This document shows, piece by piece, positions 16,840 to 60,689 of a DNA stretch of 64,000 bases. The notes under the pieces were generated by a model. That model was not told the DNA's origin and searched no databases. It worked only from the letters and a program-made list of their open reading frames with translations. The stretch spans positions 558,001-622,000 of the forward strand of contig NC_015681.1 of assembly GCF_000217795.1 (NCBI RefSeq), given 5' to 3'. The translations under genes and the position numbers were made by a program. Each line of letters starts with the position of its first letter. Within the stretch, counting starts at the first letter, position 1. The DNA is from Thermodesulfatator indicus DSM 15286. GTDB taxonomy: Bacteria; Desulfobacterota; Thermodesulfobacteria; Thermodesulfobacteriales; Thermodesulfatatoraceae.

Positions 16840-16853
16840 CTTGGGAGAACATT

Positions 16854-18416: not shown

Positions 18417-18430
18417 ATAAGGAGGTTAAC

Positions 18431-37878: not shown

Positions 37879-38199
37879 AGAGGAGCATTATAATTTTTAG
37901 TACGATTTTTATAAGAGGAATTTTATTAAAAATTTTTGATTATTTGACTAGACTTTGAGAATGACGCAAAATAGAGAGGCTTTTGCAAAGTCAGCAAACA
38001 TAGATTGAGATCGCCATGACGAGGCTCTCGCCCGGTGAGATTGCTTCGCTTCACTCGCAATGACTCTCTCCACTGCGAGGAGACCCGTTTAGGGAGATCC
38101 CTTCGCTGCGCTCAGGACAGGCGAGGCAGTCTCTAGGATATTACCAGCAGCCATCGGCTAACAGCCATCCACCTTTCAGTCACGGCGAGACCTTTCCCC

Positions 38200-38361
38200 T
38201 ATCACTGCAAAGAGCCAGCCCTATCCTGTCACTGCTAGGAGCCAGCCCTATCCTGTCACTGCTAGGAGCCAACCCTATCCTGTCACTGCTAGGAGCCAAC
38301 CCTATCCTGTCACTGCTAGGAGCCAGCCCTATCCTGTCACTGCTAGGAGCCAGCCCCTATG
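38200..38361. repeat. 27-bp tandem repeat (minisatellite), six units
   Basis: Six head-to-tail units with a period of exactly 27 bases (starts at 38200, 38227, 38254, 38281, 38308, 38335). Each unit reads tgtcactgct then aggagccagccctatcc, with single changes (one ag to aa); the first unit and the end of the last are degenerate. There are no spacers, so it is not a CRISPR array. Confidence 0.93.
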
Positions 38362-38394
38362 TCGTTACGGGGAGGAGGAGCCGCTCCCCCTTCT

Positions 38395-38481
38395 GTCACT
38401 GCGAGGAGCCGCAGGCGACGAAGCAGTCCCTTTCACCATCGGCCATCTACCATCAGCCAATTACCAATTTGTCACTGCGAG
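38395..38481. repeat. 87-bp repeat, plus-oriented copy of a perfect inverted pair
   Basis: Starts gtcactgcgaggagccgcag and ends with gtcactgcgag. Every base matches the reverse complement of 51953-52039. It encloses a ccatc-rich core. Confidence 0.93.
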
Positions 38482-38527
38482 CCCGTAGGGCGAAGCAGTC
38501 TCTTAAAAACATCTTCGGCACAAAATA

Positions 38528-38555
38528 AAAAAGGGGAGCCGAAGCTCCCCTTTTT
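38528..38555 (-). terminator. Terminator after the porin gene
   Basis: A 12-bp perfect stem (aaaaaggggagc and gctccccttttt) with a CGAA loop, 20 bases beyond the porin stop. A and T runs on both sides let it work in either direction. Confidence 0.9.
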
Positions 38556-38574
38556 ACCAGCTATTTAGCAGCAT

Positions 38575-39822
38575 TTAGAACTTGAACTTGAAACCAGAAC
38601 CAATGTAGTAAACATCATCAGCATTCTTAGCAAGAGCGTCACCTACTACGATGTAGGCAGCTTCCACGAAGAAAGTGGTGTTCTGGTTATAGGCGTATTT
38701 GTAGGTACCGTTAAGTTCAAGACCGAGATCTTTATCACCAGCAGCATTGTCTTTAGCGAGGTTGTGCCAGATAACAGCGCCTTTTAAAGAGCTCTTATCA
38801 TCAATTTTGTAAGCGCTGTCAAGCATAAGACCGAAATAACCATACTGGCCATAGCTAGCTCCATCAATGAAAGCACCGAGGTAGCCGTTGGCAAAAAGGA
38901 TACCAGGAGCCATATTCTTAGATTTCTCAGCATCCTCAAAGGTCTTATTTTTATCGACATTAGGATCATCATCACCACTGGAGTAGATAACGCTACCGGC
39001 AAGCTTGAGCTGCTCGTTTACCTGAAAACCAGCGGTGAAATCCATATACCAGGCGCTGCGGTCAACATTAGCATTCTCTTTACCACCAAGATAAATGATA
39101 TCCCAGGCGAGCTCTACCGGATCAACCATGGTGTTACCGGTAAAACCAAAGTAGTACTTGGTATTGTCAGAGCCATAAGGATCTTCGTAAGCAAAGAAGC
39201 CACCAAGGGTGGTGGTGTCATCTACTTTGTAGTCAAGCTTAATAAAGGCCAAGTGATCGTCGTCATTGGAGAAACCATTGGTATTTTTGAGCTCAGTTTC
39301 ATTATAGTCGCTATTATTCCAGACATAACCGAGCAACAAGCTGTAAGCATCGGTTTTGTAGTCGTAAGTGATACCAGCAGCATTGTCATCATAAACGGCA
39401 CCGTTGATGGAAACCGGCTGAAGCCCCATAGCCACGGCACCAGGAGCACCAAAAGGCTCAAGGCTGAACACTCCGTAAGCCAAGCGGGTTTCAACGTTCA
39501 CGCCGTCACCCTCAAAACCAAAACCTACACCTTTACCCACGGAACCAGAATCACCCCAGACAGCACCGCCGATTTCAGCGCCATAGACGAACTTGGCCAT
39601 ACCATCGTCACTGGTGACAGTCATAGTAGGACGAACCCTGGTGGCACCAAAAATGTCACCTTCTTTGTTGGCGTCAGAGTAATCGCCAGAGTCAATACCA
39701 GTGATGTTGTTACTGGCACCTACCAGGTTGAGCATGCTGCCGCTGAACTTGATGTCCACGGCATACGCCCCACTAGCCATTAACAAAAACGCCACCAAAA
39801 CCATCAAAAACTTCTTACCCAT
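38575..39822 (-). CDS. Outer-membrane porin-like beta-barrel protein
   Basis: A 415-residue exported protein. The signal peptide is residues 1-21 (MGKKFLMVLVAFLLMASGAYA), and the mature part begins VDIKFSGSMLNLVG. Alternating aromatic/polar beta strands run throughout and the chain ends in FKFKF, the terminal Phe being the sorting mark for outer-membrane barrels. It resembles porins of sulfate reducers and related thermophiles; the solute is unknown. It is likely abundant: it has its own promoter, strong ribosome-binding site (aggagg) and a strong terminator. Confidence 0.85.
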   Translation of the reverse strand: MGKKFLMVLVAFLLMASGAYAVDIKFSGSMLNLVGASNNITGIDSGDYSDANKEGDIFGATRVRPTMTVTSDDGMAKFVYGAEIGGAVWGDSGSVGKGVGFGFEGDGVNVETRLAYGVFSLEPFGAPGAVAMGLQPVSINGAVYDDNAAGITYDYKTDAYSLLLGYVWNNSDYNETELKNTNGFSNDDDHLAFIKLDYKVDDTTTLGGFFAYEDPYGSDNTKYYFGFTGNTMVDPVELAWDIIYLGGKENANVDRSAWYMDFTAGFQVNEQLKLAGSVIYSSGDDDPNVDKNKTFEDAEKSKNMAPGILFANGYLGAFIDGASYGQYGYFGLMLDSAYKIDDKSSLKGAVIWHNLAKDNAAGDKDLGLELNGTYKYAYNQNTTFFVEAAYIVVGDALAKNADDVYYIGSGFKFKF

Positions 39823-39889
39823 GTCTACCTCCTCCTTTATTTTTCTAATTTTTTAATAAATCTAACGTCCTGCTTCATAGATACATTTC

Positions 39890-39919
39890 TTTATAGGCCA
39901 AGAGCCATCTGTTTGTCAA
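39890..39919 (-). promoter_or_regulatory. Promoter of the porin gene
   Basis: On the minus strand, TTGACA (complement of 39914-39919) and TATAAA (39890-39895) are separated by 18 bases, a near-consensus sigma-70 promoter. Transcription would start about 60 bases before the porin start codon. Confidence 0.75.
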
Positions 39920-40063
39920 CCATATTTTGTTTAATTTTTGAGACAAATATTACCATCGCTTGGCTTAACACTCCACGACAATTATTGACATTTCTACGCT
40001 TTAACGCAAGCCCTAATCAGATCAATTTTACTGATTTATCTGTTAAGATTGTTTAATTAATTT

Positions 40064-40253
40064 GAGACTTTTGCAAAATATTTATTAGAGACTGCTTCGC
40101 CCATACGGGCTCGCAGTGACAGTGTGGTCGATAGCCGATGGTAAATGGCTGATGGCACAAGGAGCGGCGCCAGCAGCCGAAGCAATCCTTGTCCCGAGGC
40201 GCCGATGGCACCGTAGTGATCTATCCATGTTATTTGAATTTTGCAAAGGTCTC
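40064..40253. mobile_element. MITE-like element with 16-bp inverted ends and 5-bp target duplication
   Basis: A 190-base element. The left end is gagacttttgcaaaat (40064-40079) and the right end attttgcaaaggtctc (40238-40253): 15 of 16 positions pair as an inverted repeat. The bases AATTT stand on both sides (40059-40063 and 40254-40258), as expected for a 5-bp target-site duplication. The interior has no gene and carries gcgaagcaatc-type repeat modules. It needs a transposase in trans; none recognisable with these ends is in the window. Confidence 0.8.
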
Positions 40254-40312
40254 AATTTGATACAGCAACAAATTGTAGTAATGGAGTCATTAAACAGGCG
40301 ACAAAATACCTG

Positions 40313-40514
40313 GTCATTGCGAGCGGAGCGAAGCAATCTCTGTCCCGAGGAGACTTAGTCGCCGTGGTGATCTCTATTTTAGAGATCCCTTCGCTGCGCT
40401 CGGGACAGGGACGGCTTCGGCCTCTAACAAGGCCTCGCCGTGACAAAGAAGGGTTGCTTCGCCAGGGCCGATTATGCCGGCGTTGAGGCTTTGTTGTCTA
40501 AAAAACGCTCGGAT
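40313..40514. repeat. ~200-bp composite repeat, copy A
   Basis: Starts gtcattgcgagcggagcg and ends aaaaacgctcggatt. It matches 47511-47714 over nearly its whole length in the same orientation, with scattered changes and short indels. A diverged copy of its 3' half is at 44891-44984. The remaining 69 bases to the LD-carboxypeptidase stop show nothing recognisable. Confidence 0.9.
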
Positions 40515-40583
40515 TGAGATTAACCTATAAAATTGCCGCGAGGGGTACATCTCTCACAAGACCTCTAGCCGTGTAAACGCGGA

Positions 40584-41453
40584 TTAATAGATATCCTGGA
40601 GTAAATAGGCCTGGCCGTAGCGAGTGCAAAGATGGGTTCTTGCGCCAATGACAAGGGGATAATTTTTTATACCGTGGCCCACCGGAAGCCCTGCCAATAT
40701 GGGGCCATTAAAAACCTCCTTAAACAGAGGGATTATTTCCTGATAATTAACACCTTTGAACTCACCCAAAGCAAGACCAGAAATTTCTTCAAACACCCCG
40801 TAATTATAGAGCTGAGTGACAAGACGATCCAGGCGATAGAGGTCCTCGTTTACCTCTTCGAGGAAAAGAATTTTTCCCGAAAAATCAGGAGCCCAGCGGC
40901 TACCTAATAGACTTGCCACAGAGACCAGATTCCCGCCAATAAGTAGCCCCTGGGCCTCACCTTCACGCCATACTTCACCTATAAGAAACACTCTCTTTCG
41001 GCCAAAGAGAGTGTTTTTGAGGACTGCCAGAGTGCAAAGGCTTACTTCAAAGATAGAAGATATAACCGGCGCATGAAGTGTCAGCAGACCAAAACGGGAA
41101 AAGAAATAATTGAGCAGGATGCTCACATCACTAAAACCGATTATCCAGACAGGATGTCTGATTCTCTCTATAAGTTCGTCAAGTAAAGGCAAAAGGCGCA
41201 AGGAACCATATCCTCCGCGGCTGGCCCAAAGAAAGGTATAGGGCTTTTCAAGGAGAGAGACAAGATGTAAGGCCCTTTCTTCGTCTCTTCCCGCAAGGTA
41301 ACGGCAATTTTTAAAACACTCAGGGTCAACGTCTATTTCAAGACCCCAGGTTTTCAAAAAGTTTACTCCATTGGCTATTTTTTTAGGGTCTGGAACGCCT
41401 GCTGGCGAAAAAACTGCGCCTCTAGCTCCGATAAACAAAACAGGTTTATTCAT
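40584..41453 (-). CDS. LD-carboxypeptidase (S66 family, LdcA/MccF-like)
   Basis: A 289-residue serine peptidase that trims tetrapeptides during murein recycling, or, in MccF relatives, inactivates a peptide-nucleotide. The nucleophile is S108 in IIGFSDVS; FLWASRGGYGSLRLLP precedes it. The Glu of the triad lies in FLEEVNEDLYRLDRL and the His in LPVGHGIKNYPL. The start overlaps the coaX end by eight bases; it is the last gene of the M48-prmA-coaX run. Confidence 0.88.
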   Translation of the reverse strand: MNKPVLFIGARGAVFSPAGVPDPKKIANGVNFLKTWGLEIDVDPECFKNCRYLAGRDEERALHLVSLLEKPYTFLWASRGGYGSLRLLPLLDELIERIRHPVWIIGFSDVSILLNYFFSRFGLLTLHAPVISSIFEVSLCTLAVLKNTLFGRKRVFLIGEVWREGEAQGLLIGGNLVSVASLLGSRWAPDFSGKILFLEEVNEDLYRLDRLVTQLYNYGVFEEISGLALGEFKGVNYQEIIPLFKEVFNGPILAGLPVGHGIKNYPLVIGARTHLCTRYGQAYLLQDIY

Positions 41454-42213
41454 TTTTCTTTTTAAACCAAATGACCAGCCCCTCTAAAGTCAGATCTGGT
41501 TCTACCTCCTTTATTTGTAAAGATAATCTGGCCATGAGTTTGGCAAGGCCCCCGGTGGCTATAACGTAAGGTTTTTTTTCAAACTCCCCGGCCAGGCGGG
41601 TAATAAGCCCGTCAGTTAAGGCCGCAAAACCCCAGAGGACCCCGGTCCTCATGGCGGAGATGGTGTCTTTTCCGATTATTTCTTCAGGAACCTTGGAGAA
41701 CTCTAGTCTTGGTAGTTTTGAAGTCTTTTTAAAAAGGGTCTCAGCCGCAGCCATGACTCCTGGAGCAATAGCCCCGCCAAGATATTCCCCTTTTTCAGAA
41801 ATACAATCAAAAGTGGTAGCCGTGCCGTAATCAACGATTATCAAGCTCTGGCGATATTTATGCCAGCCAGCAAGGGCATTTAAGACCCTATCAACTCCCA
41901 CCTCACAAGGATATCTAAGCTTTACGGGAATGCCTATTTTTTCTGGAGTGGCCACTTTTACATCTTCAATACCATAAATAGAAGCCATCTCAAGCCATGT
42001 TTTAGTAAGTGGTGGGACCACCGAGCCAATAAGAAGGTGCTTTATATCGGCAAGGCTTTTTCCTCTAAGTTCTAATAAACCGTTTAAACGTAAGGCCAGC
42101 TCATCAGCCGTTTGATTTAAGCTTGAAAAGAGGCGAAAACGAAAAAGGAGCTCATCTTCGGCAAAAAAACCGCAGGTAGTATTGGTGTTCCCTATGTCAA
42201 CGGCAAGAATCAC
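41446..42213 (-). CDS. coaX: Type III pantothenate kinase
   Basis: A 255-residue ASKHA-fold kinase for the first step of coenzyme A synthesis. AVDIGNTNTTCGFF is the phosphate loop (D6), VDYGTATTFDCI the second Asp motif, and ATGGLAKLM closes the adenosine site. The start is GTG, one base after the prmA stop. Length is normal. Confidence 0.95.
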   Translation of the reverse strand: MILAVDIGNTNTTCGFFAEDELLFRFRLFSSLNQTADELALRLNGLLELRGKSLADIKHLLIGSVVPPLTKTWLEMASIYGIEDVKVATPEKIGIPVKLRYPCEVGVDRVLNALAGWHKYRQSLIIVDYGTATTFDCISEKGEYLGGAIAPGVMAAAETLFKKTSKLPRLEFSKVPEEIIGKDTISAMRTGVLWGFAALTDGLITRLAGEFEKKPYVIATGGLAKLMARLSLQIKEVEPDLTLEGLVIWFKKKNE

Positions 42214-42214
42214 C

Positions 42215-43021
42215 TTAGACCTCGTTTTCTACAAACCAGATTACCCAGCCGTTTTCTTCTTCTCGGCCTTTTATTCTGGCCTTTGGCCAGAGGGCTTCTC
42301 TTAGTTCTTTCTCCATAGCAGGAGAAAACCCCGAAAAGAGATAATAGCGATTTTGCCAGAAAGAAGGAAGGCCAAAGAGGTCAAGCAAAAGGCCTTTAAA
42401 AAGATTAGCAATAACCAGATCCGCCTCAAAGGGGACAAGTTTTTTTACGTCTTCACAATACACGGTAGCCCGGTGTTCGAGGTGATTTAAGGCTAAATTT
42501 TTGCGGGTGAGCTCCACACAAAGGGGGTTGAAGTCAACGGCAAGTACCTGGGCCCCAAGGCTTGCCGAAAGGAGAGAGAGAAGGCCTGCCCCGCAGCCAA
42601 GGTCAGCTACCTTTTCAAACGGCCCATATTCTTGCCATAGTTTGTATATCCAGGAAAGGCAGAGTTTGGTGGTTGGATGGTTGCCCGAACCAAAGACCAC
42701 ACCGGGATCAAACTTAAGGCCAGGCCCTTCTTCCCACACCGGCCGCAGGACAATATCGCCAAACTTGAGGCATGAGATTTTACGCCCCTCACTCCATTCG
42801 TCGTAAGAGACTTCAGCCCTGTCTTCTATGGTAAGGCCAAGCTCTTTAGCTAGGCGATCCAGCAGGGCATCTTTAGGCTTATGAAAAAAGACGATAGCAA
42901 GGCCATCTTCTTCCCAGCAACCTATGAAATCTTCGTCGTCGATTTCGTGAAGCGCCGGATGCTTCCGGTCAAAAGAATAAAGATAAAGTTTATGGTATCT
43001 TTTATGGTGTCCTCTCAGCAT
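42215..43021 (-). CDS. prmA: Ribosomal protein L11 methyltransferase-like protein (PrmA)
   Basis: A 268-residue SAM-dependent methyltransferase. The SAM loop is VADLGCGAGLLSLL, and GVVFGSGNHPTTKLCL and VIANLFKGLL match PrmA, which trimethylates L11. The ATG at 43021 (protein starts MLRGHHKRYHKL) is preferred because upstream codons in frame read through the M48 gene; it overlaps that gene by 20 bases and lacks a clear ribosome-binding site. The target is taken from family similarity. Confidence 0.85.
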   Translation of the reverse strand: MLRGHHKRYHKLYLYSFDRKHPALHEIDDEDFIGCWEEDGLAIVFFHKPKDALLDRLAKELGLTIEDRAEVSYDEWSEGRKISCLKFGDIVLRPVWEEGPGLKFDPGVVFGSGNHPTTKLCLSWIYKLWQEYGPFEKVADLGCGAGLLSLLSASLGAQVLAVDFNPLCVELTRKNLALNHLEHRATVYCEDVKKLVPFEADLVIANLFKGLLLDLFGLPSFWQNRYYLFSGFSPAMEKELREALWPKARIKGREEENGWVIWFVENEV

Positions 43022-44780
43022 GGCAAAATTTTTCTTTTTGTTGGCGATAATAACGCAGATTTTCGTAAAAGTCAGGGGCAAGTTCAGCTCTTCTTGCCGC
43101 AAGGGTGGCGTAAAGGCAGGCCCTTTGCGGATTACCGTTGGCAAACCAGGCCTCGGCCAGGGTATCCAGGTGGATGGCGGTAAGTTTTTGGGCCGTAGCC
43201 TTCTGCGCAAGGCTCAAGGCTTTTTTAGGGTCTTTCAAGGCCTTATCCTTGGTGGTGGCCAAAATCCAGGCCATGTTATTCAAAATTTCCGGGTCTTCTT
43301 TGAGGGTGAGGGCCTTTTCATACCAATTTAAGGCCTCTTTTTCTCGTCCGAGCTCGTAAGCCACGTGCCCGAGCAAGGCAAGGACTTCAGGATTCCCAAA
43401 AACCCGGGCTTCTTCCAGGAGTTCACCGTAGTAGAGGTTAAGTCTCGCCCTTTTTTCAAGGTGTTCAGCTGGCAAACGATTAAAAAGCCCTATCAACAAC
43501 ACAGCCAAGAAAAGATAGCTCACCAAACAAAGCTTCACCTTACGATGGTGCCTGCTTATAAGAGTTGGATCACTTTCAGCGGCCTCAAGAAATTCGATTC
43601 TTTGCCTAATGCTGAAGTGATGCCAGCTGGGGACGTCTTCGGTATGTCCGGAGATAGCGGCAATTTTTTTAAAGGCCCGAACAAGGCCCTGGGCGGTGCC
43701 GAGACTTTCCAGGCAATAAAGGTCTGCCTGGCGTTCAAAATTTCGCAAGAAAAAACCCAGTAAAAACCGAAAATAAAGCACTACACTTACCGCCAGCCCA
43801 ATGGTAAGCAGAGCCTCAGGCAAAAGCAGGTTCTCACCACCCCATAAGACAAGCAAATCCGGACGGGGGAAATAGGCAAGAAAAACAAGATAAAGCGGAA
43901 TAAAGGCAAAGTAGATGATGAGGCTAAAAAGAACGAAAAAGGTAAGCAACCAGAACATGTGATGCCGCTTAATGTGGCCAATTTCGTGGGCAACTACCGA
44001 GAGGACTTCTGCCTCTTCAAGGGTGGCAAGAAGGCCTCTTGAAATCAGAAGATAGCGGAAGCGAGGAACAACCCCAATAACACCTGCAGTCAAAAGCTTG
44101 CCTCTAAAGGTTTCCCAGAGATAAATACCTCCCAGGCGGGCCCTTTCCCGCGAGATATAGTCTTCGATAATCCTTCTAATATTGCTTACAGGAAATGGCT
44201 TACATTCCCAGGTTTTTACCGCAAGCGGTGGCATGAGAAGAATAATGGCTCCCAGGAAACAAACAAAGTAAAAGAGCTCTCCGTAAATGCCTTGATTGAA
44301 AGGTAAACGTCCTTCCAGAAGGCTAAAAAGGGCGTTTACCAGAAACCAGGGCAGCAAAAAGGGGAAAAGAAGCTTAAGGTGTGAAAGGACGTAGGCGGGA
44401 ACAGAAATATTGGCTAGAGGGCTTCTTTTTTCGTAAAAAGCGGCTACAGCCCAAACAAGTATCAGATAGTGAAGAAAAAGGATAACGCCTACTAAATCCT
44501 TAAGAAAGCTTTTTTCCTGAGGAATAAAGGCGGGAATCTCCAAGATTATAACGTCCAGGGCAAAACAACCAAAGGCCAGGAACTTCAAGAAGGTTTGAGC
44601 ACTAATAAAATCTCTGGCGGTACGAGCACGTTTAAACTTATAAACGGCCAGCAGAAGCAGGGAAATTTCTTTTATAAACCAGGCCAGAAAAATCTCTGGC
44701 AAAGGCAGGGTAGCCTCAGCTGGCCAGCTTGAGAAAAGCAAAATAGCCAATATCAAGTAAATAGCATCGGTATATAACAC
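43002..44780 (-). CDS. M48-family membrane metallopeptidase with TPR tail
   Basis: A 592-residue integral membrane peptidase. Several transmembrane helices (about 5-110, 135-185 and 275-345) surround the zinc site HEIGH (H265-E266-H269); FERQADLYCLE supplies the third ligand region near residue 349. A hydrophobic segment about 385-405 is followed by TPR repeats (about 420-570, for example LGREKEALNWYEKAL). Related HtpX/Oma1-type proteins act in membrane protein quality control. The start is GTG; a TATAAT lies 15 bases upstream, so the mRNA may be nearly leaderless. Confidence 0.87.
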   Translation of the reverse strand: MLYTDAIYLILAILLFSSWPAEATLPLPEIFLAWFIKEISLLLLAVYKFKRARTARDFISAQTFLKFLAFGCFALDVIILEIPAFIPQEKSFLKDLVGVILFLHYLILVWAVAAFYEKRSPLANISVPAYVLSHLKLLFPFLLPWFLVNALFSLLEGRLPFNQGIYGELFYFVCFLGAIILLMPPLAVKTWECKPFPVSNIRRIIEDYISRERARLGGIYLWETFRGKLLTAGVIGVVPRFRYLLISRGLLATLEEAEVLSVVAHEIGHIKRHHMFWLLTFFVLFSLIIYFAFIPLYLVFLAYFPRPDLLVLWGGENLLLPEALLTIGLAVSVVLYFRFLLGFFLRNFERQADLYCLESLGTAQGLVRAFKKIAAISGHTEDVPSWHHFSIRQRIEFLEAAESDPTLISRHHRKVKLCLVSYLFLAVLLIGLFNRLPAEHLEKRARLNLYYGELLEEARVFGNPEVLALLGHVAYELGREKEALNWYEKALTLKEDPEILNNMAWILATTKDKALKDPKKALSLAQKATAQKLTAIHLDTLAEAWFANGNPQRACLYATLAARRAELAPDFYENLRYYRQQKEKFCHAERTP

Positions 44781-44816
44781 AAAATGGGATTATAACTTAT
44801 TCCAAAATTAGAGACA

Positions 44817-44835
44817 GGGGACAGGCGAAAAAATT
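44817..44835 (+). repeat. Short dispersed repeat, GGGACAGGC core (copy 3)
   Basis: Reads ggggacaggcgaaaaaatt, a full-length match to the RAYT-associated copies, in the gap between the divergent M48 and TonB-receptor genes. Confidence 0.65.
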
Positions 44836-44890
44836 AAGCCTTCTCCTACTTTTTAAAAGATTTTTCCTAGTTCAGAGGCAAACTGCTTTA

Positions 44891-44984
44891 GCCTCTAACA
44901 AGGCCTCTCCATGCCAGCGAGGGTCACTTCGCCTTGGTGATTATGCCAGCGATGACACTTTGTTACCTAAAAAATGCTTGAATT
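44891..44984. repeat. Diverged copy of the composite-repeat 3' half
   Basis: Runs from gcctctaacaaggcctc to aaaaaatgcttgaatt and aligns with the second half of the ~200-bp repeats at 40313 and 47511, with many substitutions (for example ggcctctccatgcc against ggcctcgccgtgac). No gene in the 298-base gap. Confidence 0.75.
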
Positions 44985-45011
44985 AATATCATCAGTCTCG
45001 TTGAAAAATTA

Positions 45012-45041
45012 TTGACACGAATTGTATTTTCTTGCTACATA
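45012..45041 (+). promoter_or_regulatory. Promoter of the TonB-dependent receptor gene
   Basis: TTGACA at 45012-45017 and TACATA at 45036-45041 with 18-base spacing, about 37 bases before the ATG. No clear Fur box, cobalamin riboswitch or other metal operator was recognised. Confidence 0.6.
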
Positions 45042-45078
45042 TAGAGCTTCAAAAATCCATAGTACGGGAGGGCGTGTT

Positions 45079-47289
45079 ATGTATTTTTGGTCATTGTTCC
45101 TGGCTTTGATTTTGTCTATGTTTACGGCCTCTCAGGCCAAGGCCGCGGATAACGCGGTTTCTCTGGGCGAGGTGGTGGTCACCGCTACCAAAACTGAAAC
45201 ACCCCTTAAAGACGTGCCGGCCAGTGTCACGGTAATCACCAAAAAGGACATGGAGGATAAACACCTGGTCACCATAGATAAGGCCCTTGAAAACGAGGCC
45301 GGAGTTTATGTGAGACGCACCAAAGGCCTCATGGACACTTTGGCCTCTGTTACCTTGCGAGGTATCCCCTATCAGAAACGCACCCTGATTTTGCTCGACG
45401 GAGTTCCCATAAACGACGGCTATTACGGTGGAGTGCCCTGGAACAACTTATCCACCTATAACATAGATCGCATTGAAGTGGTGCGAGGGGCCTATTCGGC
45501 GCTTTGGGGTGGAAACGCCATGGGCGGGGTGGTGAGCCTCTTTACCGAATTGCCTACCAAACTCACTTACTGGGCCAAAGGTGGTTTTGGAGGCGGAGAA
45601 AGCGTAACTCAGGGGTATCGTCTGGGACTGGGCAATCGTATAGGAGATGTTTCTTTTCTGCTTGGTTTTGAGAAGGATATTGATCATGGGTATTCAAACT
45701 CTTTGGTGCTTAGAAGCCCCAAAAGCGGAAGCGGTACTCTTATGGGTGGCTATCCAATGCTTGACAAAACAGGAACCGAGCTCAAGTGGGTAGTAGGTGA
45801 CAAAGGTGACAACTGGGGCAGACGAGAAAACTATAACGCCGCTTTAGGCTGGACCTTTAGCCCAGATGGCTTTTTGAAGCTCAGCTATCAGCACGGCTGG
45901 TCAAGTTACGGCTACGGACCGCCTCATACTTATGTTTACGATCCCGCCACCGATGAGCCTTCTTTTAGTGGAAATGTATCTTTACCTGACGGACAGTATG
46001 TTTCCGTAAAACCTTCAAACTATATTTATTATACGGGAATAGGTCGAAACCAAACAGATCTCTGGACATTAAATGCTAAAAATAAATTTGGTAAAGCTGA
46101 AACAAATGTTACTTTAGGATATATAAAAAGGGATAAATATTATACTACAACAAAAACATATACTAAAGACTACTACACGGCAGATGGTAATCTTGCTAAG
46201 ACTAAGGCCGACACCTTCTACACAGATTTAAACAGCGCTTTTGACTTATTTGCTAATCACTTATTAACTGTTGGTATTACATATCGTTTGGATAAAGCAG
46301 ACACCAAGGAATACGATCTTTCTTTTTATCGGGATCCTGACTCTAAAGGAGATGAAACTTATCGTTCAGGCGGTTATGTAGGCACTTTGGGCCTATTTGC
46401 CCAGGATAAATGGGCTTTAAGAGATGATCTTGATTTATTCTTGGGCCTGCGTTACGACCATTGGTGGACTTATAACGGCTATTCCAGCGTTGACGGTTCT
46501 TATCCTTCAAGAGATACAGGAACAGCTTCTCCTAAAATAGCTCTGGTCTGGAATCCTCTCCAGGATACTACCCTGCGGCTCTCTTATGGCAAAGCCTTTC
46601 GGGCCCCCAATGTATACGAACTTTATCGTACTTGGGTTTCTTCCTGGGGAACTACTTATCACGCTAATCCCAATCTAGACCCAGAAAAAGCATATACCAC
46701 CGAATTATCTTTAACTCAAAAGCTCTGGGATGGGCGTCTCAATTTTGAAGCAAGTATTTATTCTACCAAGCTTGAAGACCTGATCTATCGCAAAAGTGTT
46801 GGCTCGGACAAATACTACATTAATGCTGGAGAAGGCAGAATTTACGGATTTGAAGCTGGGATCAAGGCCAAACCCACTCACTGGCTAAACTTAGGTATAA
46901 ACTATACAAGAAACGATACTAAAATTACCTCAAACCCGGCAGACCCATCTTCTGAAGGCAAGCGTTTCGTCAAAACTCCACCCTGGATATGGAACTTCAA
47001 CATTGGAATCGAGATGCCCAAAGTCACTTTTGCTTTTAATGGACACTACGTGGGCAAGGTCTATCATGAAGAAGACAACTCCGACGTGGCAGAAGGTGTT
47101 TACGCCACCTCAGAGGATTATTTCGTAGCAGACCTTAAGACCACGGTTTATTTGCCTACACCTTCCTGGTTAGCAGGGGATAGACTCGCCCTTTCCCTTT
47201 CAATAAACAACCTATTTGACAAAGATTACTTTGATTACTACAAAGCGCCGGGGCGAAGCTGGTTCCTCTCCCTTGAGCTTAAAAGATAG
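45079..47289 (+). CDS. TonB-dependent outer-membrane receptor
   Basis: A 736-residue receptor. The signal peptide is about 1-22 (ending SQAKA), then a TonB-box-like GEVVVTATKTETP, a plug domain (VPASVTVITKKDMED, LRGIPYQKRTLILLDGVPIN, and VEVVRGAYSALWGGNAMGGVV-like end seen as IEVVRGAYSALWGG), and a 22-strand barrel. The chain ends SWFLSLELKR. The start at 45079 has gggagggcg upstream and gives a clean signal peptide. The ligand is unknown: the next gene encodes a CobN-type chelatase, which favours a corrinoid, cobalt or tetrapyrrole ligand. The DNA at 46.0-46.4 kb is locally AT-rich. Confidence 0.9.
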   Translation: MYFWSLFLALILSMFTASQAKAADNAVSLGEVVVTATKTETPLKDVPASVTVITKKDMEDKHLVTIDKALENEAGVYVRRTKGLMDTLASVTLRGIPYQKRTLILLDGVPINDGYYGGVPWNNLSTYNIDRIEVVRGAYSALWGGNAMGGVVSLFTELPTKLTYWAKGGFGGGESVTQGYRLGLGNRIGDVSFLLGFEKDIDHGYSNSLVLRSPKSGSGTLMGGYPMLDKTGTELKWVVGDKGDNWGRRENYNAALGWTFSPDGFLKLSYQHGWSSYGYGPPHTYVYDPATDEPSFSGNVSLPDGQYVSVKPSNYIYYTGIGRNQTDLWTLNAKNKFGKAETNVTLGYIKRDKYYTTTKTYTKDYYTADGNLAKTKADTFYTDLNSAFDLFANHLLTVGITYRLDKADTKEYDLSFYRDPDSKGDETYRSGGYVGTLGLFAQDKWALRDDLDLFLGLRYDHWWTYNGYSSVDGSYPSRDTGTASPKIALVWNPLQDTTLRLSYGKAFRAPNVYELYRTWVSSWGTTYHANPNLDPEKAYTTELSLTQKLWDGRLNFEASIYSTKLEDLIYRKSVGSDKYYINAGEGRIYGFEAGIKAKPTHWLNLGINYTRNDTKITSNPADPSSEGKRFVKTPPWIWNFNIGIEMPKVTFAFNGHYVGKVYHEEDNSDVAEGVYATSEDYFVADLKTTVYLPTPSWLAGDRLALSLSINNLFDKDYFDYYKAPGRSWFLSLELKR

Positions 47290-47294
47290 GCGCT

Positions 47295-47322
47295 AAAGGG
47301 CGGGGAAACCCGCCCTTTCTTT
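47295..47322 (+). terminator. Terminator after the TonB receptor gene
   Basis: A 10-bp perfect stem (aaagggcggg and cccgcccttt) with a GAAA loop, then a T-rich ctttctt. It starts six bases after the stop codon. Confidence 0.88.
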
Positions 47323-47510
47323 CTCACTATTCACTATCAGCCATCTACCATCAGCCAATCACCATACAGTCACTGCGAGGAGGCATTCTTCCCCCCTGTC
47401 ACTGTATGGTTTTAATTTAACCCTGTCATTGCGAGGCCTCGCTAGAGGCCGAAGCAATCCCAGGGACTGCTTCGTGGCCCTACGGGCCTCCTCGCAGTGA
47501 CAGAGGTGAT

Positions 47511-47714
47511 GTCACTGCGAGCGGAGCGAAGCAATCCTTGTCGCGAGGAGACTTAAGTCGCCGTGGCAATCTCTATTTTAGAGATCCCTTCGCTGCGCTC
47601 GGGACAGGGACGGCTTCGGCCTCTAACAAGGCCTCGCCGTGACAAAGAAGGGTTGCTTTACCAGGGCCGATTATGTCGCGTTGACGCCTTGTTGTCTAAA
47701 AAACGTTCGGATTA
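47511..47714. repeat. ~200-bp composite repeat, copy B
   Basis: Direct, near-identical copy of 40313-40514. Differences include cttgtcgcg for ctgtcccg near the start and tatgtcgcgttgacg for tatgccggcgttgag near the end. Confidence 0.9.
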
Positions 47715-47763
47715 ATAAAAATGGTGTTTCTGCGATTTAAATCTTGGCTTTTTCGTGCTATTT

Positions 47764-47784
47764 TTGTTAACTAAATATTAACAA
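47764..47784. promoter_or_regulatory. Perfect 7-bp inverted repeat, possible operator
   Basis: TTGTTAA and TTAACAA separated by seven bases (ctaaata), standing in the only non-repeat part of this island, about 400 bases before cobN. It has the geometry of a dimeric regulator site, but no known box was matched. Confidence 0.35.
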
Positions 47785-47982
47785 GTGCTGAAAATACCAG
47801 AAAATGAGACCTTTGCAAAATTCAGAAAAAACAGAGATTGAGATAGCTACGGCGAGATTGCTTCGCCACTTCGTGGCTCGCAATGACCAAAAAGGAGACA
47901 GGGCTCGCAATGACAAGATAGAGGGTCGTAGTTTGCAATGACTGCCATGTTGTCACTGCGAGGAGCCAGCCCCTATGTCGCT

Positions 47983-48122
47983 GAGCCAGCTCCTATGTCG
48001 TTACGGGGAGGAGCCAGTCCCTACGTCGTTACGGAGAGAAGCCAGTCCCTATGTCGTTACGGGGAGGAGCCAGCCCCTATATCGTTACGGGGAGGAGCCG
48101 CTCCCCCTTCTGTCACTGCGAG
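47983..48122. repeat. 28-bp tandem repeat (minisatellite)
   Basis: Units starting near gagccag at 47983, 48011, 48039, 48067 and 48095, each 28 bases apart, reading gagccagtccctatgtcg then ttacggggag with point changes. It shares the aggagccag/ccctat core with the 27-bp array at 38200, so the two arrays look like separate expansions of one module. Confidence 0.88.
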
Positions 48123-48184
48123 GAGCCGTAGGCGACGAAGCAGTCTCAGGCCTTAACCTTAAAATTACGGCAAGGAGGCCCTAA

Positions 48185-51100
48185 ATGAAAAAAGTAGTTG
48201 CCGCCATGTGGAACAGTTACATTCCGCCGCTTTTAAAAGCGGCCCAGGCAGAAGGGCTTTTTAACCTCAAGATGTGGGCCACCAGAAAACTGGAAGACCA
48301 GGACGTACTTGAGGCCTTTCTCCAAGAATGCCAGGAGGCAGACCTCATCGTCCTCTACGCCACTTCTGAAGGCTTCTGGGAAGAGCTCGCCAAAGAACTG
48401 AAAAGTCTTTATCCGGAAAAGCCGGTTATCTGGTCAGGCTTTGAGGCCGCCTGGTGGGGGCATTCTTTCAAAGGGGCAGAGCTTGGCGGCACGGTTTATC
48501 GTTATCTTCTCTACGGCGGCGAAGAAAACCTCAAAAACCTGGTGCGTTACCTGGCGGCCCAGGGCCTCGGCCTTGAAGTCTCTTACGGGCCTCCTAAAGA
48601 GCTACCCTGGATGGGCATTTATCATCCCGAAGCCCCTGAGCCTTTTGAAGACCTTAAAAGTTATCTTTCTTGGTACAAACCGGCTCCTGAAAAACCCTGG
48701 GTAGGGCTTTTGTTTTCACGGCAATATTGGGTTAACGGAGACCTTGCTGTTGAAAACGAAGCAATTAAAACCCTTGAAGCCCAAGGGCTTAATGTGCTTC
48801 CAGTTTTTGCTTACAGCCTTGAAGACAAAAGCCTTGGCACAAAAGGTAGCCGCGGGGCGGTTGAGGCCTTCTTTCTTGATAAAGAAGGCCGACCGACCAT
48901 TGACGCCCTGATCAAGCTCATACCCTTTTTCCTGGGCACGCGCTCCCGGGCCCTTGCCGATACCAGCGCCTCCACCTCAGGGGTTGAGCTCTTGAAAAAA
49001 CTCAACGTACCGGTGTTTCAACCCCTCGGGCTTTACTACCAAACCGAAGAAGAATGGCGTAAAAACCCCCAGGGTCTTACCCAGGAAATAGGCTGGGCCC
49101 TGGCCATGCCCGAATTTGAAGGGGTTATTGAGCCGATTCCCATATTCGCGGTCAACCGTGAGGAAGACCCTGAAACCGGCACCCTTTTAGAAGAACGTCG
49201 TCCCATTAAGGAACGCATCAGGCACCTGGCCGCAAGAATCGCCGGCTGGCTGGCCCTTAAGCATACGCCACCTGAAGATCGCCGCCTGGTCTTTGTGCTT
49301 CACAATAACCCCTGCGCTTCGGTTGAGGCCACGGTGGGTGGAGCAGCTAACCTTGATGCCCTGGAAAGCGTGGTGCGCATTTTACGCGACCTTAAGGCCA
49401 GGGGCTACCGCGTTGAAAATATCCCGGAAAACGGTGAGGCCCTGGCCCAGGAGATACTTAGCCGCAAGGCCATCTCAGAATTTCGCTGGACCACGGTGGA
49501 TGAAATCGTAAAAAAGGGCGGAGCCCTTGAGCTTATATCTTTAGAACAATACCTGCGCTGGTGGCGAGAGTTTCCCGAAGAAGTGCGCCAGAAGATAGAA
49601 GCTGCCTGGGGAAGGCCACCAGGAGAGCCCAAAGACGGTGTGCCCGCGTCCATGGTCTATAAAGGCCAGATCGTAGTTACCGGGCTTCGTTTCGGTAATG
49701 TCTTGGTTTGTGTGCAACCCAAACGGGGCTGTGCTGGCCCACGCTGTGACGGCCGGGTCTGCAAAATACTTCACGACCCGGATATCCCGCCGCCGCATCA
49801 GTATCTCGCTACCTACCGCTATTTTGAGGATGTTTTTGGAGCCCACGCCGTTATTCACGTGGGTACTCACGGAAACCTTGAGTTTTTGCCTGGCAAGGGA
49901 GCCGGGCTCTCTGAGGCCTGTTTTCCAGACCTGGCCATAGGCCACCTGCCGCATCTTTACATCTATAACGCGGACAATCCCCCGGAAGGGGTTATCGCTA
50001 AGAGACGTAGCTACGCCGTGCTGGTGGACCACATGCAAACGGTAATGCAAGAGGCCGGGCTTTACGGCGAGCTTGAAGCTCTTTCCAATCTCCTTGGCGA
50101 ATACGAAGAGGCCAGGAAAAACCACGGCGCAAGGGCCCATGCCCTGGAGCACATGATTGTTGACTCTCTCAAAAAGGCCGGACTCTACGGCGAAGTGATG
50201 GAAGAGCTTGGCGAAGAAAAAGACGACTTTTTAGCCCTTTGCCGGGTGATACACGAGACCTTAAACCGCCTTAAAGGGACCCAGGTGCAAGACGGTCTCC
50301 ACATATTTGGCGAGGTGCCAGAGGGTGAAAGGCTAGCCAAATTTCTGCGGGCCATCGTAAGGTATGACCTTAACGAAAACCCCGGCTGGCAAAGAGCCTG
50401 GGAAGACGAAGAAATCTGGCAGGCCCTGGTAGAAGGAAAATTTGATAGCCAACTGCTGGCTAAGTTCTCTGACCTCTGGGCCAGGGTGGAGGACTTAAAG
50501 GCCCGCGTTAGGGCCTCAAGGGAACGGGAGGCCCTTTTGCGTGCCCTTGACGGCGGTTATGTGCCGCCAGGGCCTTCGGGCTTAATTACCCGCGGGCGAG
50601 ACGACGTACTACCCACCGGGCGCAATTTTTACACCCTTGACCCACGCCGGGTGCCTACTAAAGCCGCCTATAAGGTAGGCCAGCGCCTGGCTGAAGCGGT
50701 GATTGAAAAATACCTGGCCGAGCACGGAAAATATCCGGAAAACATCGCCCTTTACTGGATGGCCAACGACATCATGTGGGCTGACGGCGAAGGCATGGCC
50801 AAGATCCTGGCCTTAATTGGCGTGCGGCCCGTATGGCTCGGAAACGGCCGGGTTAAAGGCTTTGAGGTTATTCCTCTGGAAGAACTCGGCCGTCCGCGCA
50901 TTGACGTGACCATCAGGGTTTCAGGCATCACCCGGGACAACTTCTTTGACTGTATAACCCTGGTGGATAAGGCTATTCAAGCCGTGGCTATGCTTGATGA
51001 GCCACCTGAAAAAAATTTCGTGCGCAAGCATACCCTGGCCAAACTTGAAAGCCTTAAGAAAAAGTTTTCCGCAAAAGAGGCCAAGCGCAGGGCCACTTTC

Positions 51101-51913
51101 AGGCTCTTTGCCTCAAAGCCCGGCACTTACAAGGCCGGGGTGAACCTTGCAGTCTATGCCTCAGCCTGGAAAGACGAACGAGATTTGGCTGATGTCTTTG
51201 TCTATTGGAACGGCTATGCTTACGGCGAAGAAGCCTTTGGCCAGGAGGCCCACCTTGAACTTGCTGAGAACCTAAAAAGCGTATCACTTACCTTTAACAA
51301 GACCGTGACCGACGAATACGACCTCTTTGGCTGTTGCAGTTATTTTGGCACCCACGGAGGCTTGACGCTAGCGGCGCGTGAGCTTTCAGGCCACAAAATT
51401 CCGGTTTATTACGGGGACACGCGCGACCCCTCCAAGGTTGAAGTGCGCACTCTGGCTGCCGAGATTCGGCGGGTGGTAAAGGCCAAGCTTTTGAACCCTA
51501 AGTGGATAGAAGGCATGAAACGCCACGGTTACCGCGGAGCCGGGGAGATAGCCAAACGCATTGGCCGTGTTTATGGCTGGCAGGCCACCACCCGCGAGGT
51601 GGACGACCAGATCTTTGACGACCTGGCCCGCACCTATGCCCTGAACAAAGAAAACCGCCGTTTCTTCAAAGAACATAATCCCTGGGCCCTTGAAGAAATA
51701 GCCCGTCGCCTCCTTGAGGCTGAAAGCCGCGGCCTCTGGCAGGCCAACCCAGAAGTGCTGCGCCGGCTTAAAGAGGCCTATCTTGAGGTGGAAGCCGTGC
51801 TAGAAGACGCCATGGCTGCTGGCGAGTTCGGCCCTCAGGGTGGTTCAGTAGATGTTATCACCAGCGAAGAGGTGGCCAGCTGGCGAGAAAAGATGCAAAA
51901 GTTGCATCAGTAA
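48185..51913 (+). CDS. CobN-type chelatase large subunit (cobaltochelatase CobN / HmuS-like)
   Basis: A 1242-residue protein of the CobN/BchH family, the porphyrin- or corrin-binding subunit of class I chelatases. Family stretches include VVLYATSEGFWEELAKEL-type N-terminus, HVGTHGNLEFLPGK with GLSEACFPD, VLPTGRNFYTLDPRRVP, and FGCCSYFGTHGGLTLAARELSG near the end. Length is normal for CobN. The ATPase partners (CobS/CobT or ChlI/ChlD) and other cobalamin genes are not within this window. A TonB receptor lies upstream, an arrangement also seen for CobN-like proteins tied to metal or tetrapyrrole uptake. Strong ribosome-binding site aaggagg. A role in cobalt insertion is the default; dechelation or uptake is an alternative. 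Confidence 0.85.
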   Translation: MKKVVAAMWNSYIPPLLKAAQAEGLFNLKMWATRKLEDQDVLEAFLQECQEADLIVLYATSEGFWEELAKELKSLYPEKPVIWSGFEAAWWGHSFKGAELGGTVYRYLLYGGEENLKNLVRYLAAQGLGLEVSYGPPKELPWMGIYHPEAPEPFEDLKSYLSWYKPAPEKPWVGLLFSRQYWVNGDLAVENEAIKTLEAQGLNVLPVFAYSLEDKSLGTKGSRGAVEAFFLDKEGRPTIDALIKLIPFFLGTRSRALADTSASTSGVELLKKLNVPVFQPLGLYYQTEEEWRKNPQGLTQEIGWALAMPEFEGVIEPIPIFAVNREEDPETGTLLEERRPIKERIRHLAARIAGWLALKHTPPEDRRLVFVLHNNPCASVEATVGGAANLDALESVVRILRDLKARGYRVENIPENGEALAQEILSRKAISEFRWTTVDEIVKKGGALELISLEQYLRWWREFPEEVRQKIEAAWGRPPGEPKDGVPASMVYKGQIVVTGLRFGNVLVCVQPKRGCAGPRCDGRVCKILHDPDIPPPHQYLATYRYFEDVFGAHAVIHVGTHGNLEFLPGKGAGLSEACFPDLAIGHLPHLYIYNADNPPEGVIAKRRSYAVLVDHMQTVMQEAGLYGELEALSNLLGEYEEARKNHGARAHALEHMIVDSLKKAGLYGEVMEELGEEKDDFLALCRVIHETLNRLKGTQVQDGLHIFGEVPEGERLAKFLRAIVRYDLNENPGWQRAWEDEEIWQALVEGKFDSQLLAKFSDLWARVEDLKARVRASREREALLRALDGGYVPPGPSGLITRGRDDVLPTGRNFYTLDPRRVPTKAAYKVGQRLAEAVIEKYLAEHGKYPENIALYWMANDIMWADGEGMAKILALIGVRPVWLGNGRVKGFEVIPLEELGRPRIDVTIRVSGITRDNFFDCITLVDKAIQAVAMLDEPPEKNFVRKHTLAKLESLKKKFSAKEAKRRATFRLFASKPGTYKAGVNLAVYASAWKDERDLADVFVYWNGYAYGEEAFGQEAHLELAENLKSVSLTFNKTVTDEYDLFGCCSYFGTHGGLTLAARELSGHKIPVYYGDTRDPSKVEVRTLAAEIRRVVKAKLLNPKWIEGMKRHGYRGAGEIAKRIGRVYGWQATTREVDDQIFDDLARTYALNKENRRFFKEHNPWALEEIARRLLEAESRGLWQANPEVLRRLKEAYLEVEAVLEDAMAAGEFGPQGGSVDVITSEEVASWREKMQKLHQ

Positions 51914-51929
51914 TGATGAATAGCTTTAT

Positions 51930-52275
51930 GCCCCTGAGACTGCTTCGCTTCGCTCGCAGTGACAAATTGGTAATTGGCTGATGGTAGATGGCCGATGGTG
52001 AAAGGGACTGCTTCGTCGCCTGCGGCTCCTCGCAGTGACAAATGTGATCAGGGCTCGCAGTGACAAATATGACCAGAGCTCGCAGTGACAAATGTGACCA
52101 GGGTTCGCAGTGACAAATGTGGCCAGGGTTCGTAGTAACAAGGGAGAATAAAGGTCTTGCAGAGACACCGAAAGAAGTCATTGCGAGCGAAGCGAAGCAA
52201 TCTCTGAAACATACAGGCTCGCCGTGACACTTAGATTGTTATTGCGAGCCACGAAGTGGCGAAGCAATCTCTAAA
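51930..52275. repeat. Composite repeat island between cobN and ribD (convergent 3' ends)
   Basis: About 345 bases of repeats: the inverted copy of the 87-bp unit (51953-52039), then four short units of about 22-23 bases reading gctcgcagtgacaaatgtga (52032-52135), then larger hairpin arms (gaagcaatctct, gagccacgaagtggcgaag). It fills the space between two genes pointing at each other; no gene and no classical terminator were found. Confidence 0.85.
51953..52039. repeat. 87-bp repeat, inverted copy
   Basis: Exact reverse complement of 38395-38481, beginning ctcgcagtgacaaattgg. The pair brackets 13.5 kb containing the porin, M48/prmA/coaX, TonB and CobN genes. Confidence 0.93.
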
Positions 52276-52279: not shown

Positions 52280-53389
52280 TCAAAAAGAAAGCAGGCTTAT
52301 AGGCTCGGTTAAGTAACCTCTTACTAAGAGCGAATCCCCCAACCTTTTAAAGGAAAACTTGGAAAGCCTTGAGGCTTGAGCAAGCAAAGCAGGACCATCC
52401 CCTCCTATAGCACAGGGAGAACTTTTGCCACCAATTATCACCGGACCATAAAAAAAAGCAATTTCATCGACCAATCCCTGGTCAAAAAAACTTCCATGCA
52501 CCTCAGCGCCACCTTCAACCAGAATACTCAAAATATCCTGGTTAAAAGCTCTTTTAAGTAAAGCCTTGAGGTCAACCTGACTGTTTTCAACAGGAAGACG
52601 CCATACAATAACACCAAGTTTTTTCAGCTCTTTTTCTTTATTTCTTGGGGCCTCGTTATTACAGGCTACAACGGTTTGGGCTTCTTTATTCAAAAAGACT
52701 TGGCGATCTAGAGGAAGCGAAAGCTTAGAATCAAGGATAATACGAACCGGATTTTTCCCACCTTTAAGACGACAGGTAAGAAGTGGGTCATCTTTTAACA
52801 CCGTGTTTTTCCCCACTAAGATGGCGTCGCATATATGGCGTAATCGGTGGCCGAAACGCCTGGCCTTCTCTCCGGTAATCCATTTCGAATCCCCGGTGCG
52901 CGTAGCAATGCGGCCATCAAGGCTCATGGCTGCTTTGGCTATTATCCAGGGCCGTCTTTCTTTTACAGTTTTAAGAAAAAAACGGCAAAGCTCAGCACAT
53001 TCTTCTGCCAAAATCCCGGTAGTAACCTCTAAGCCATTAACTCTTAGGAAATCTGCGCCGCCCTGGGCTTTTGGATTCGGATCCCTCGCCCCAATGACCA
53101 CTCTTTTTATCCCGGCCTTTAAAATGGCCTGAGTGCAGGGAGGGGTTTTCCCATAGTGATTACAGGGCTCAAGGGTAACATAAATGGTTGCCCCCCTAGC
53201 CTTTTCACCCGCTTCGCGTAAGGCATGGACCTCGGCATGGGGTGTCCCGGCCAGACGATGATAACCTTTGCCCACGATTTGGCCGTCTTTAACCACCACT
53301 GCCCCTACAGGCGGATTGGGTGAAGTACGTCCGAGGCCCTTTCGGCCTTCCTTTAAGGCTATGCGCATAAAGTAAATGTCAGGGTTCAT
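52280..53389 (-). CDS. ribD: Bifunctional riboflavin deaminase-reductase RibD
   Basis: A 369-residue enzyme performing the second and third steps of riboflavin synthesis. The N-terminal deaminase domain (1-145) has the zinc site HAE (H51, E53) with C76 and C85 (LEPCNHYGKTPPC). The C-terminal reductase domain (about 146-365) starts with KAAMSLDGRIATRTGDSKWI and has ILVEGGAEVHGSF. Both domains are complete. No other rib genes are in the window. Confidence 0.95.
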   Translation of the reverse strand: MNPDIYFMRIALKEGRKGLGRTSPNPPVGAVVVKDGQIVGKGYHRLAGTPHAEVHALREAGEKARGATIYVTLEPCNHYGKTPPCTQAILKAGIKRVVIGARDPNPKAQGGADFLRVNGLEVTTGILAEECAELCRFFLKTVKERRPWIIAKAAMSLDGRIATRTGDSKWITGEKARRFGHRLRHICDAILVGKNTVLKDDPLLTCRLKGGKNPVRIILDSKLSLPLDRQVFLNKEAQTVVACNNEAPRNKEKELKKLGVIVWRLPVENSQVDLKALLKRAFNQDILSILVEGGAEVHGSFFDQGLVDEIAFFYGPVIIGGKSSPCAIGGDGPALLAQASRLSKFSFKRLGDSLLVRGYLTEPISLLSF

Positions 53390-57832: not shown

Positions 57833-57870
57833 TTTTTACGAAAAATTTTTTCTTAAATTGGGTATAGGTG

Positions 57871-57921
57871 GGGACAGGCGAAAAATTTTCGTACGGATTT
57901 TAGGGACAGGCGAAAAATTTT
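57871..57921 (+). repeat. Short dispersed repeat, GGGACAGGC core (copies 4 and 5, tandem)
   Basis: Two direct copies of gggacaggcgaaaaatttt at 57871-57889 and 57903-57921, 32 bases apart, in the 274-base gap between dnaB and the Asp/Arg-rich gene. The gap holds no gene. Confidence 0.75.
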
Positions 57922-57937
57922 TGAATTTTTGAAAAAA

Positions 57938-57973
57938 ATAAAAAGCCCCGCTTCCGTGGGGAAACGGGGCTTC
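57938..57973 (-). terminator. Terminator after the Asp/Arg-rich protein gene
   Basis: On the minus strand AAGCCCCG-TTTCC pairs with GGAA-GCGGGGCTT around a short loop, followed by a run of Ts. It begins 27 bases beyond the stop codon. Confidence 0.85.
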
Positions 57974-57999
57974 CTGGGGCTTAGCAAACGATTAAAATT

Positions 58000-58245
58000 C
58001 TACCAGTGAATTCTATCTCTATCCCTATCCATATCTTTGTCTAAAAGTCTATCTCTGTCTAAATCTCTATCACGAAGATGCAAGCGATCACGAGTATAGT
58101 CACAATCCTGTAATTTCTGGTGAATGCGATCTCTATCTTTGTCACAGTCTCCTCTTCCCTTACCTTTGCCAGCAAAAACTGGTGGAACTACTAACAATCC
58201 CAAGGCAAATGCACCAGCCAATCCTTTTTTAATTAAATCTTTCAT
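58000..58245 (-). CDS. Small secreted Asp/Arg-repeat protein, unknown function
   Basis: An 81-residue precursor. The signal peptide is about 1-25 (MKDLIKKGLAGAFALGLLVV... ending VFA), leaving a 56-residue mature chain that starts GKGKGRGDCDKDRDR and then repeats DRDR/DRDRL units almost to the end (DLDRDRLLDKDMDRDRDRIHW). Two cysteines (C34, C48) could form one disulfide. It is highly charged but nearly neutral, and would be exported to the periplasm or beyond. The start has a strong ggaggaggttggctt ribosome-binding site; the frame extends 19 codons further with no support. A clean terminator follows, so it is a real, separately transcribed gene. I do not recognise a family; metal binding or nucleation is a guess. 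Confidence 0.8.
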   Translation of the reverse strand: MKDLIKKGLAGAFALGLLVVPPVFAGKGKGRGDCDKDRDRIHQKLQDCDYTRDRLHLRDRDLDRDRLLDKDMDRDRDRIHW

Positions 58246-58312
58246 AAGCCAACCTCCTCCATGTTTTATTTTACTTTCTTTAATATGCAAAGGACGTGCC
58301 AAAAACAGAAAT

Positions 58313-58323
58313 TTGCCTGTCCC
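58313..58323 (-). repeat. Short dispersed repeat, GGGACAGGC core (copy 6)
   Basis: Reads ttgcctgtccc on the plus strand in the gap between the divergent Asp/Arg-rich and ispF genes. Confidence 0.55.
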
Positions 58324-58348
58324 TAAAATTCGCTATAAATTTCTTCTC

Positions 58349-60673: not shown

Positions 60674-60689
60674 CAGGAGGTTTTGCTTT

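Follow-up and report, generated by a model that had tools for sequence, protein, structure and literature searches.

Identical inverted repeats on either side of a gene block raise the question whether the enclosed segment can be flipped or whether the repeats arose in another way. Such a pair lies in the window analysed here, a stretch of 64,000 nucleotides comprising positions 558001–622000 of a closed 2,322,224-bp genome (G000, contig C1).

The inverted repeats are longer than described and are the only identical full-length pair in the genome

The identical inverted copies, previously given as 87 bp long, are real and slightly longer. They extend over 89 bp with 100% complementarity (38394–38482 and 51952–52040) and are separated by a gap of 13,469 bp. 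When gaps are allowed, homology of the arms covers 38394–38502 and 51936–52040 with 95.4% identity over 109 columns. By an arithmetic estimate, the chance of a perfect 89-mer in 64 kb is about 1e-45, and the pair cannot be of chance origin. The following genes lie between or next to the arms:

38575..39822, minus strand: gene called porin in the preliminary description; no family match
40584..44780, minus strand: S66 LD-carboxypeptidase, type III pantothenate kinase, PrmA and M48 peptidase with TPRs; family match
45022..47289, plus strand: TonB-dependent receptor; family match
48185..51913, plus strand: CobN-type cobaltochelatase; family match
52280..53389, minus strand: RibD, convergent with CobN; family match

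Most gene names in the preliminary description were correct, namely those of the TonB receptor, CobN, the M48 peptidase, PrmA and the type III pantothenate kinase; the S66 LD-carboxypeptidase, which also lies within the segment, was missing from it. The porin label of 38575–39822 (minus) found no support, though it is not disproved: Pfam and NCBIfam gave no match and a PDB search returned antibody chains alone (E 0.015–0.055). Both arms sit 3′ of genes (CobN, RibD and 'porin'), away from promoters.

A genome-wide search with the 89-mer yielded 52 matches (E<=0.01), both arms included. The arms are the sole full-length copies with 100% identity among them, and the next-best match reaches 82% over 93 bp. 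Membership of the arms in this large dispersed family had been overlooked.

Each arm is a REP-linker-REP cassette

Each arm consists of two directly repeated REP-type hairpins flanking a 41-bp linker:

38394..38502, plus strand: left cassette, REP1-linker-REP2
38394..38428, plus strand: REP1, with tag TGTC, outer stem ACTGC/GCAGT and inner part GCC-GCA-GGC
38429..38469, plus strand: linker of 41 bp; in the genome sample a REP head then follows in 7/8 linker matches
38470..38502, plus strand: REP2, whose inner stem reads GCCC-GTA-GGGC; the equivalent place beside the terminator is occupied by a REP in G007, a genome of the same genus
51936..52040, minus strand: right cassette, 100% identical to the left one over 89 bp; inner part of REP2 GCGAAGC

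Homology of the arms runs from the REP1 tag to the REP2 tail, and the inner stem-loop of REP2 is the sole internal difference. Eleven loci, hand-chosen from 30 listed matches to the 89-mer and made up of both arms and nine others, align as REP-linker-REP, with flanks that mostly diverge beyond tag and tail. Exceptions are L004, which has no second hairpin, and L012, which is degraded.

Hairpin stems of the REP family vary in a paired manner

The 11-base head GTCAYTGCGAG is present in 331 copies in the 2.32-Mb genome (172/159 by strand) and in none in a reversed control. It was found in 13 of 41 genomes searched including G000, with 288 copies in G007, 43 in G004 and at most 16 in each of the others besides G000. 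For structural analysis we used a sample of 724 kb consisting of the window and 33 evenly spaced 20-kb stretches. This sample contains 112 exact heads, and 76 hairpins were read in it with the outer variable pair left free. They share a 5-bp outer stem, an asymmetric internal loop and a variable inner stem, and their loops mostly comprise 3–5 nucleotides. The variable pair of the outer stem was C-G in 42 hairpins, T-A in 33, C/A in one and T/G in none (Fisher p 9e-21; the copies are related, so that the 76 are not independent events). Among 41 distinct inner parts, mirror positions were complementary at 0.81 versus 0.66 with halves swapped between elements. The tags were TGTC (45), AGTC (15), CGTC (7), GGTC (5) and others (4), their letters G and T being imposed by the search pattern, and the tails were CTC in 52 cases, CCC in 16 and CCA in none. 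Within 150 bp, neighbouring heads of the sample were oriented directly in 26 cases, head-to-head in 19 and tail-to-tail in seven (n=52).

Folding predictions for single-stranded DNA recovered the drawn structure for REP2 of the left cassette (z -2.08). REP2 of the right cassette formed the outer stem without significance (z +0.31), and REP1 took a different structure, also without significance against shuffled sequences (z -0.52). Loops starting with G and ending with A on the head strand (GNA/GNNA type) occur in 20 of 31 distinct hairpins with an inner stem of at least 3 bp, and in 56 of 89 elements among the loci listed from other genomes. DNA hairpin loops of the GNA/GNNA type are stable. 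Their presence on the head strand suggests that the elements form hairpins in single-stranded DNA; RNA hairpins are possible too.

Gene order around the left arm is conserved in G007

The reversed contig C64 of G007 is collinear with 0.3–1.4, 1.4–11.5, 21.3–37.5 and 37.0–44.8 kb of the window. At the corresponding place of C64, 11.5–21.3 kb of the window (approx. 9.8 kb) is unmatched. Both neighbours of the left arm, the PAP2 and 'porin' genes, keep their place within a conserved collinear block. This collinearity at the left junction shows that G000 and G007 do not differ by a fixed inversion between the arms. Past the M48 peptidase gene, C64 carries 53.8–61.5 kb of the window in inverted orientation. 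One endpoint of the inversion separating the two genomes lies near 44.9 kb and the other at 61.5 kb or beyond, neither of them at an arm. The G007 genes for the TonB receptor and CobN are found on the same strand at the ends of two contigs, both of which end in apparently one AAA-ATPase gene (judged by eye). We infer that the two genes are adjacent in G007, with an insertion between them. RibD is located on another contig, and the CobN-RibD junction of the right arm was not seen in G007. G004 has CobN and the TonB receptor in divergent orientation on a shared contig, with the remaining genes on separate contigs. Rearrangement is thus present in this region, but not at the left arm.

The PAP2-'porin' site of G007 contains REPs, one of them at the place of REP2, and lacks the 89-mer. 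No exact heads were found in the G007 DNA inspected downstream of CobN or in the stretch around RibD. We also considered REPs as general breakpoints and rejected this idea: of the six intergenic regions of the window that bear REPs, four have the same neighbours in G007 (in one case with an insertion inferred across a gap between contigs) and the other two have not. The other breaks or insertions, at approx. 11.5, 21.3, 24.6, 33.7 and 53.8 kb, revealed no exact heads and no clear link between REPs and breakpoints.

The arms are surrounded by further repeats

Tandem arrays and longer REP-bearing repeats accompany the cassettes:

38198..38356, plus strand: 27-bp tandem array of head-only units, adjoining the left cassette
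52029..52140, minus strand: 25-bp tandem array of head-only units, adjoining the right cassette
47983..48100, plus strand: tandem array in the TonB receptor-CobN interval, with degenerate head units of 28 bp
48091..48145, plus strand: a third, partial copy with 98% identity to 38374–38428 over 55 bp
40313..40515, plus strand: REP-bearing MITE-like repeat, near-identical to 47511–47713; family link by eye
47511..47713, plus strand: REP-bearing MITE-like repeat, near-identical to 40313–40515
44882..44984, plus strand: fragment of this MITE-like repeat, at the M48-TonB synteny break
52177..52271, strand not given: two additional REPs on the downstream side of the right cassette

Each tandem array repeats the head with an array-specific spacer, and the cassettes abut or lie near the 27-bp and 25-bp arrays. 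In the 724-kb sample, 6 of 34 arrays with periods of 18–32 hold the exact motif GTCAYTGC. Members of the MITE-like family measure approx. 140–170 bp and carry two REPs each; the copies are mostly 94–98.7% identical and far apart (C1 positions 242230, 246371, 449771, 514790, 719974, 860366, 914641, 1749181 and 1875586). An IS110-family transposase is encoded in stretch L059 (10786–11754; C1:448786–449754), where the end of the element abuts a REP, and a 99% identical copy of this element is located at 1,815,419–1,816,690. Insertion of IS110-family elements into REPs is known from other bacteria. The densest REP stretch of the sample, L078 (26 exact heads in 20 kb; 6840–18747, C1 approx. 1,804,840–1,816,750), is a polysaccharide region with an O-antigen ligase and glycosyltransferases, in which REP heads also occur inside open reading frames, e.g. 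11147–12796 (minus). A perfect 53-bp inverted repeat of non-REP type was observed in L081, its copies lying 8.4 kb apart (C1:2005196–2005248 and 2013645–2013697).

The arms probably represent a recently copied cassette

With the cassette anatomy, the family, the pairing within the hairpins, the relative youth of the pair and the gene order around the left arm established, the arms are probably the pair that was copied last within a dispersed family of intergenic mosaic cassettes (REP-linker-REP), generated by local conversion or template switching, and not a dedicated flipping device. The earlier proposal of recent copying or gene conversion is supported by the 100% identity of the pair, compared with at most 82% over comparable length for all other family members. 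In this reading, one array would have served as template for the other, either in a local gene conversion event or through template switching during replication, and copying would have been delimited by the recurring heads and tails of the hairpins. Copying from left to right appears likely because, in the one relative on which the direction rests (G007), the left site already carries REPs and the right junction was not seen. Any inversion between the arms would then be ordinary, rare homologous recombination between repeats.

Near-identical segment pairs were found within the same stretch in 22 of 141 cases versus 7.75 expected, a value reached in 0.0002 of 5000 shuffles. After omission of L078 the count was 7 of 113 versus 5.24 expected (0.27 of shuffles), and after omission of both L078 and the window it was 1 of 73, which shows that the local enrichment is carried by these two stretches. 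Weaker pairs exhibited no local excess (4 of 128 versus 7.06 expected).

The main rival to conversion or template switching is unit transposition, in which a trans-acting transposase would mobilise the REP-linker-REP cassette, as a miniature non-autonomous element, in single-stranded form and would recently have inserted it at one of the two sites. We consider this unlikely. Unit transposition would likewise yield the shared block, which has one border precisely at a REP tag and the other at a REP tail, and the near-identical, far-apart copies of the MITE-like repeat indicate that REP-bearing DNA has moved recently. Candidate enzymes are available, as the genome has 22 matches to Y1 transposases grouped into 16 places, and the window protein encoded at 60690–61538 scored 68.5 bits against the model for REP-associated tyrosine transposases, below the cut-off of 80 bits. 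Against this explanation, 8 of 9 sampled Y1 places had no exact head within 2 kb, whereas GGGACAGGC repeats were located within 2 kb of all nine. A Y1 transposase as mover of the REPs was rejected, since the sampled Y1 genes are associated with this different repeat. Furthermore, a lagging-strand test of the sampled heads displayed no strand bias (60 versus 52, p 0.51), and the inner parts of REP2 are unlike between the two cassettes. In the window itself, GGGACAGGC repeats surround the Y1 transposase-like gene 60690–61538 (57865–61266).

Two functional explanations deserve far less weight. Perfect 89-bp inverted repeats bracketing outer-membrane genes are what a reversible switch would look like, and flipping of the 13.5 kb between them might alter expression of these genes. 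Judged from the sequence, such a switch is highly improbable: instead of occupying promoters, the arms are found downstream of CobN, RibD and 'porin', and no invertase-like gene was detected among 20 window proteins scanned. The expectation that recombination would flip the segment is unsupported, as the left arm is placed inside a collinear block in G007 and the inversion there uses other endpoints; the kept left junction was the reason to reject an invertible switch as leading reading. Just as improbable is the maintenance of the hairpins as RNA structures at 3′ ends, acting in mRNA stabilisation or attenuation, with the identity of the pair resulting from homogenisation plus selection. Paired changes in the hairpin stem and the position of the cassettes next to gene 3′ ends are consistent with this idea. 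It is opposed by the 100% identical linker, which lies outside the hairpins and requires no RNA function, and by the nearly equal numbers of heads on both strands (172 and 159).

Returning to copying by conversion or template switching, a more far-reaching version would hold that REP heads are recognised borders of cassette copying and that this process makes intergenic arrays next to surface genes change more rapidly than the neighbouring genes. This version is quite doubtful, and its link to surface genes (outer-membrane, polysaccharide) consists of two anecdotes here. If it is true, the tandem head-only arrays would be a by-product, and a thermophilic lineage of sulfate reducers would have arrived independently at a system comparable to the Neisseria mosaic. 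The pair itself is a real, recent repeat pair of a known kind and, for the most part, an ordinary finding. It illustrates that even a conspicuous inverted repeat without mismatches can be accounted for by an active, dispersed family of repeats, without invoking a switch.

Comparison with known repeat systems

A literature search for the repeat sequence returned no related paper, as judged by title and abstract. For Thermodesulfatator atlanticus, a table in PMC12306157 gives 1,297 REPs by that tool's own definition, and we do not claim that REPs in Thermodesulfatator are unpublished. CGTC-tagged REPs are short intergenic hairpins of high copy number without a flanking transposase gene (Di Nocera, De Gregorio and Rocco 2013, PMC3733652). 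According to the available text of that paper, which does not name Thermodesulfatator, they carry an unpaired NGTC tag at one end, with TGTC as a listed variant and CCTC as an alternative, a continuous stem of 8–9 bp starting with A-T in the T class, a loop of 4–5 and a tail that is mostly CCA. Head-to-head dimers predominate, direct pairs are negligible and clusters are rare; the CGTC-1 REPs of Neisseria are identical to dRS3 (PMC3733652).

The G000 elements are likewise short intergenic hairpins of high copy number, have a CGTC or TGTC tag in 52 of 76 cases, begin their stem with A-T in the T class and show no link to a transposase, given the 8 of 9 sampled Y1 places that lack a head within 2 kb. 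In contrast, instead of a stem of 8–9 bp they have an outer stem of 5 bp, separated from an inner stem by an asymmetric internal loop, the CCA tail is found in 0 of 76, and neighbouring heads most often have direct orientation (26 of 52). Stem, tail and arrangement thus depart from the published description in its available text; as the comparison was made by text, the elements may belong to one of its four families. When public genomes were scanned with an anchored pattern, at least 118 stretches were detected, and the 80 loci listed come from many groups. The 89 elements in these 80 loci are tagged CGTC (65), TGTC (20), GGTC (3) or AGTC (1), with GTC imposed by the pattern. Among the loci listed, the tail is CCA in 45 of 89, the stem is of the T-A class in 89 of 89, so that the C-G class was unseen there outside this genus, and Bradyrhizobium is one of several groups that have hairpins of the G000 type combining a CGTC tag with a CCA tail. 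These elements with matching hairpin, mostly CGTC-tagged, link the hairpin to the CGTC REPs.

REPINs are inverted REP pairs. In REPINs and GTAG REPs, which are associated with RAYT transposases (PMC3116915, PMC2817692), REP pairs are mobile units. The cassette described here differs from them as a direct pair with a tag other than GTAG and without a linked Y1 gene. In the neisserial dRS3/RS mosaics, as far as the available text of PMC3898611 describes them, short inverted-repeat elements alternate with longer units in arrays of a few hundred bp, which are linked to local recombination near surface genes. Similarly, short palindromes bound recurring longer units in the arrays of G000, as seen from the 11 composite loci and from the head that comes after 7 of 8 linker matches. 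The cores differ, ATTCCC(N8)GGGAAT in dRS3 versus AYTGC...GCART here, and phage-integrase targeting is a feature of the neisserial system.

The genus analysed here is densely populated with REPs and, if it is indeed Thermodesulfatator, does not belong to any of the five phyla for which the available text of PMC3733652 lists CGTC repeats. How REPs without a linked transposase spread is a question left by the same text, and if heads bound copying, this genus offers a way to ask it. On the basis of the published descriptions as available, the repeat resembles CGTC-tagged REPs in tag, hairpin and copy number, and the Neisseria mosaics in layout.
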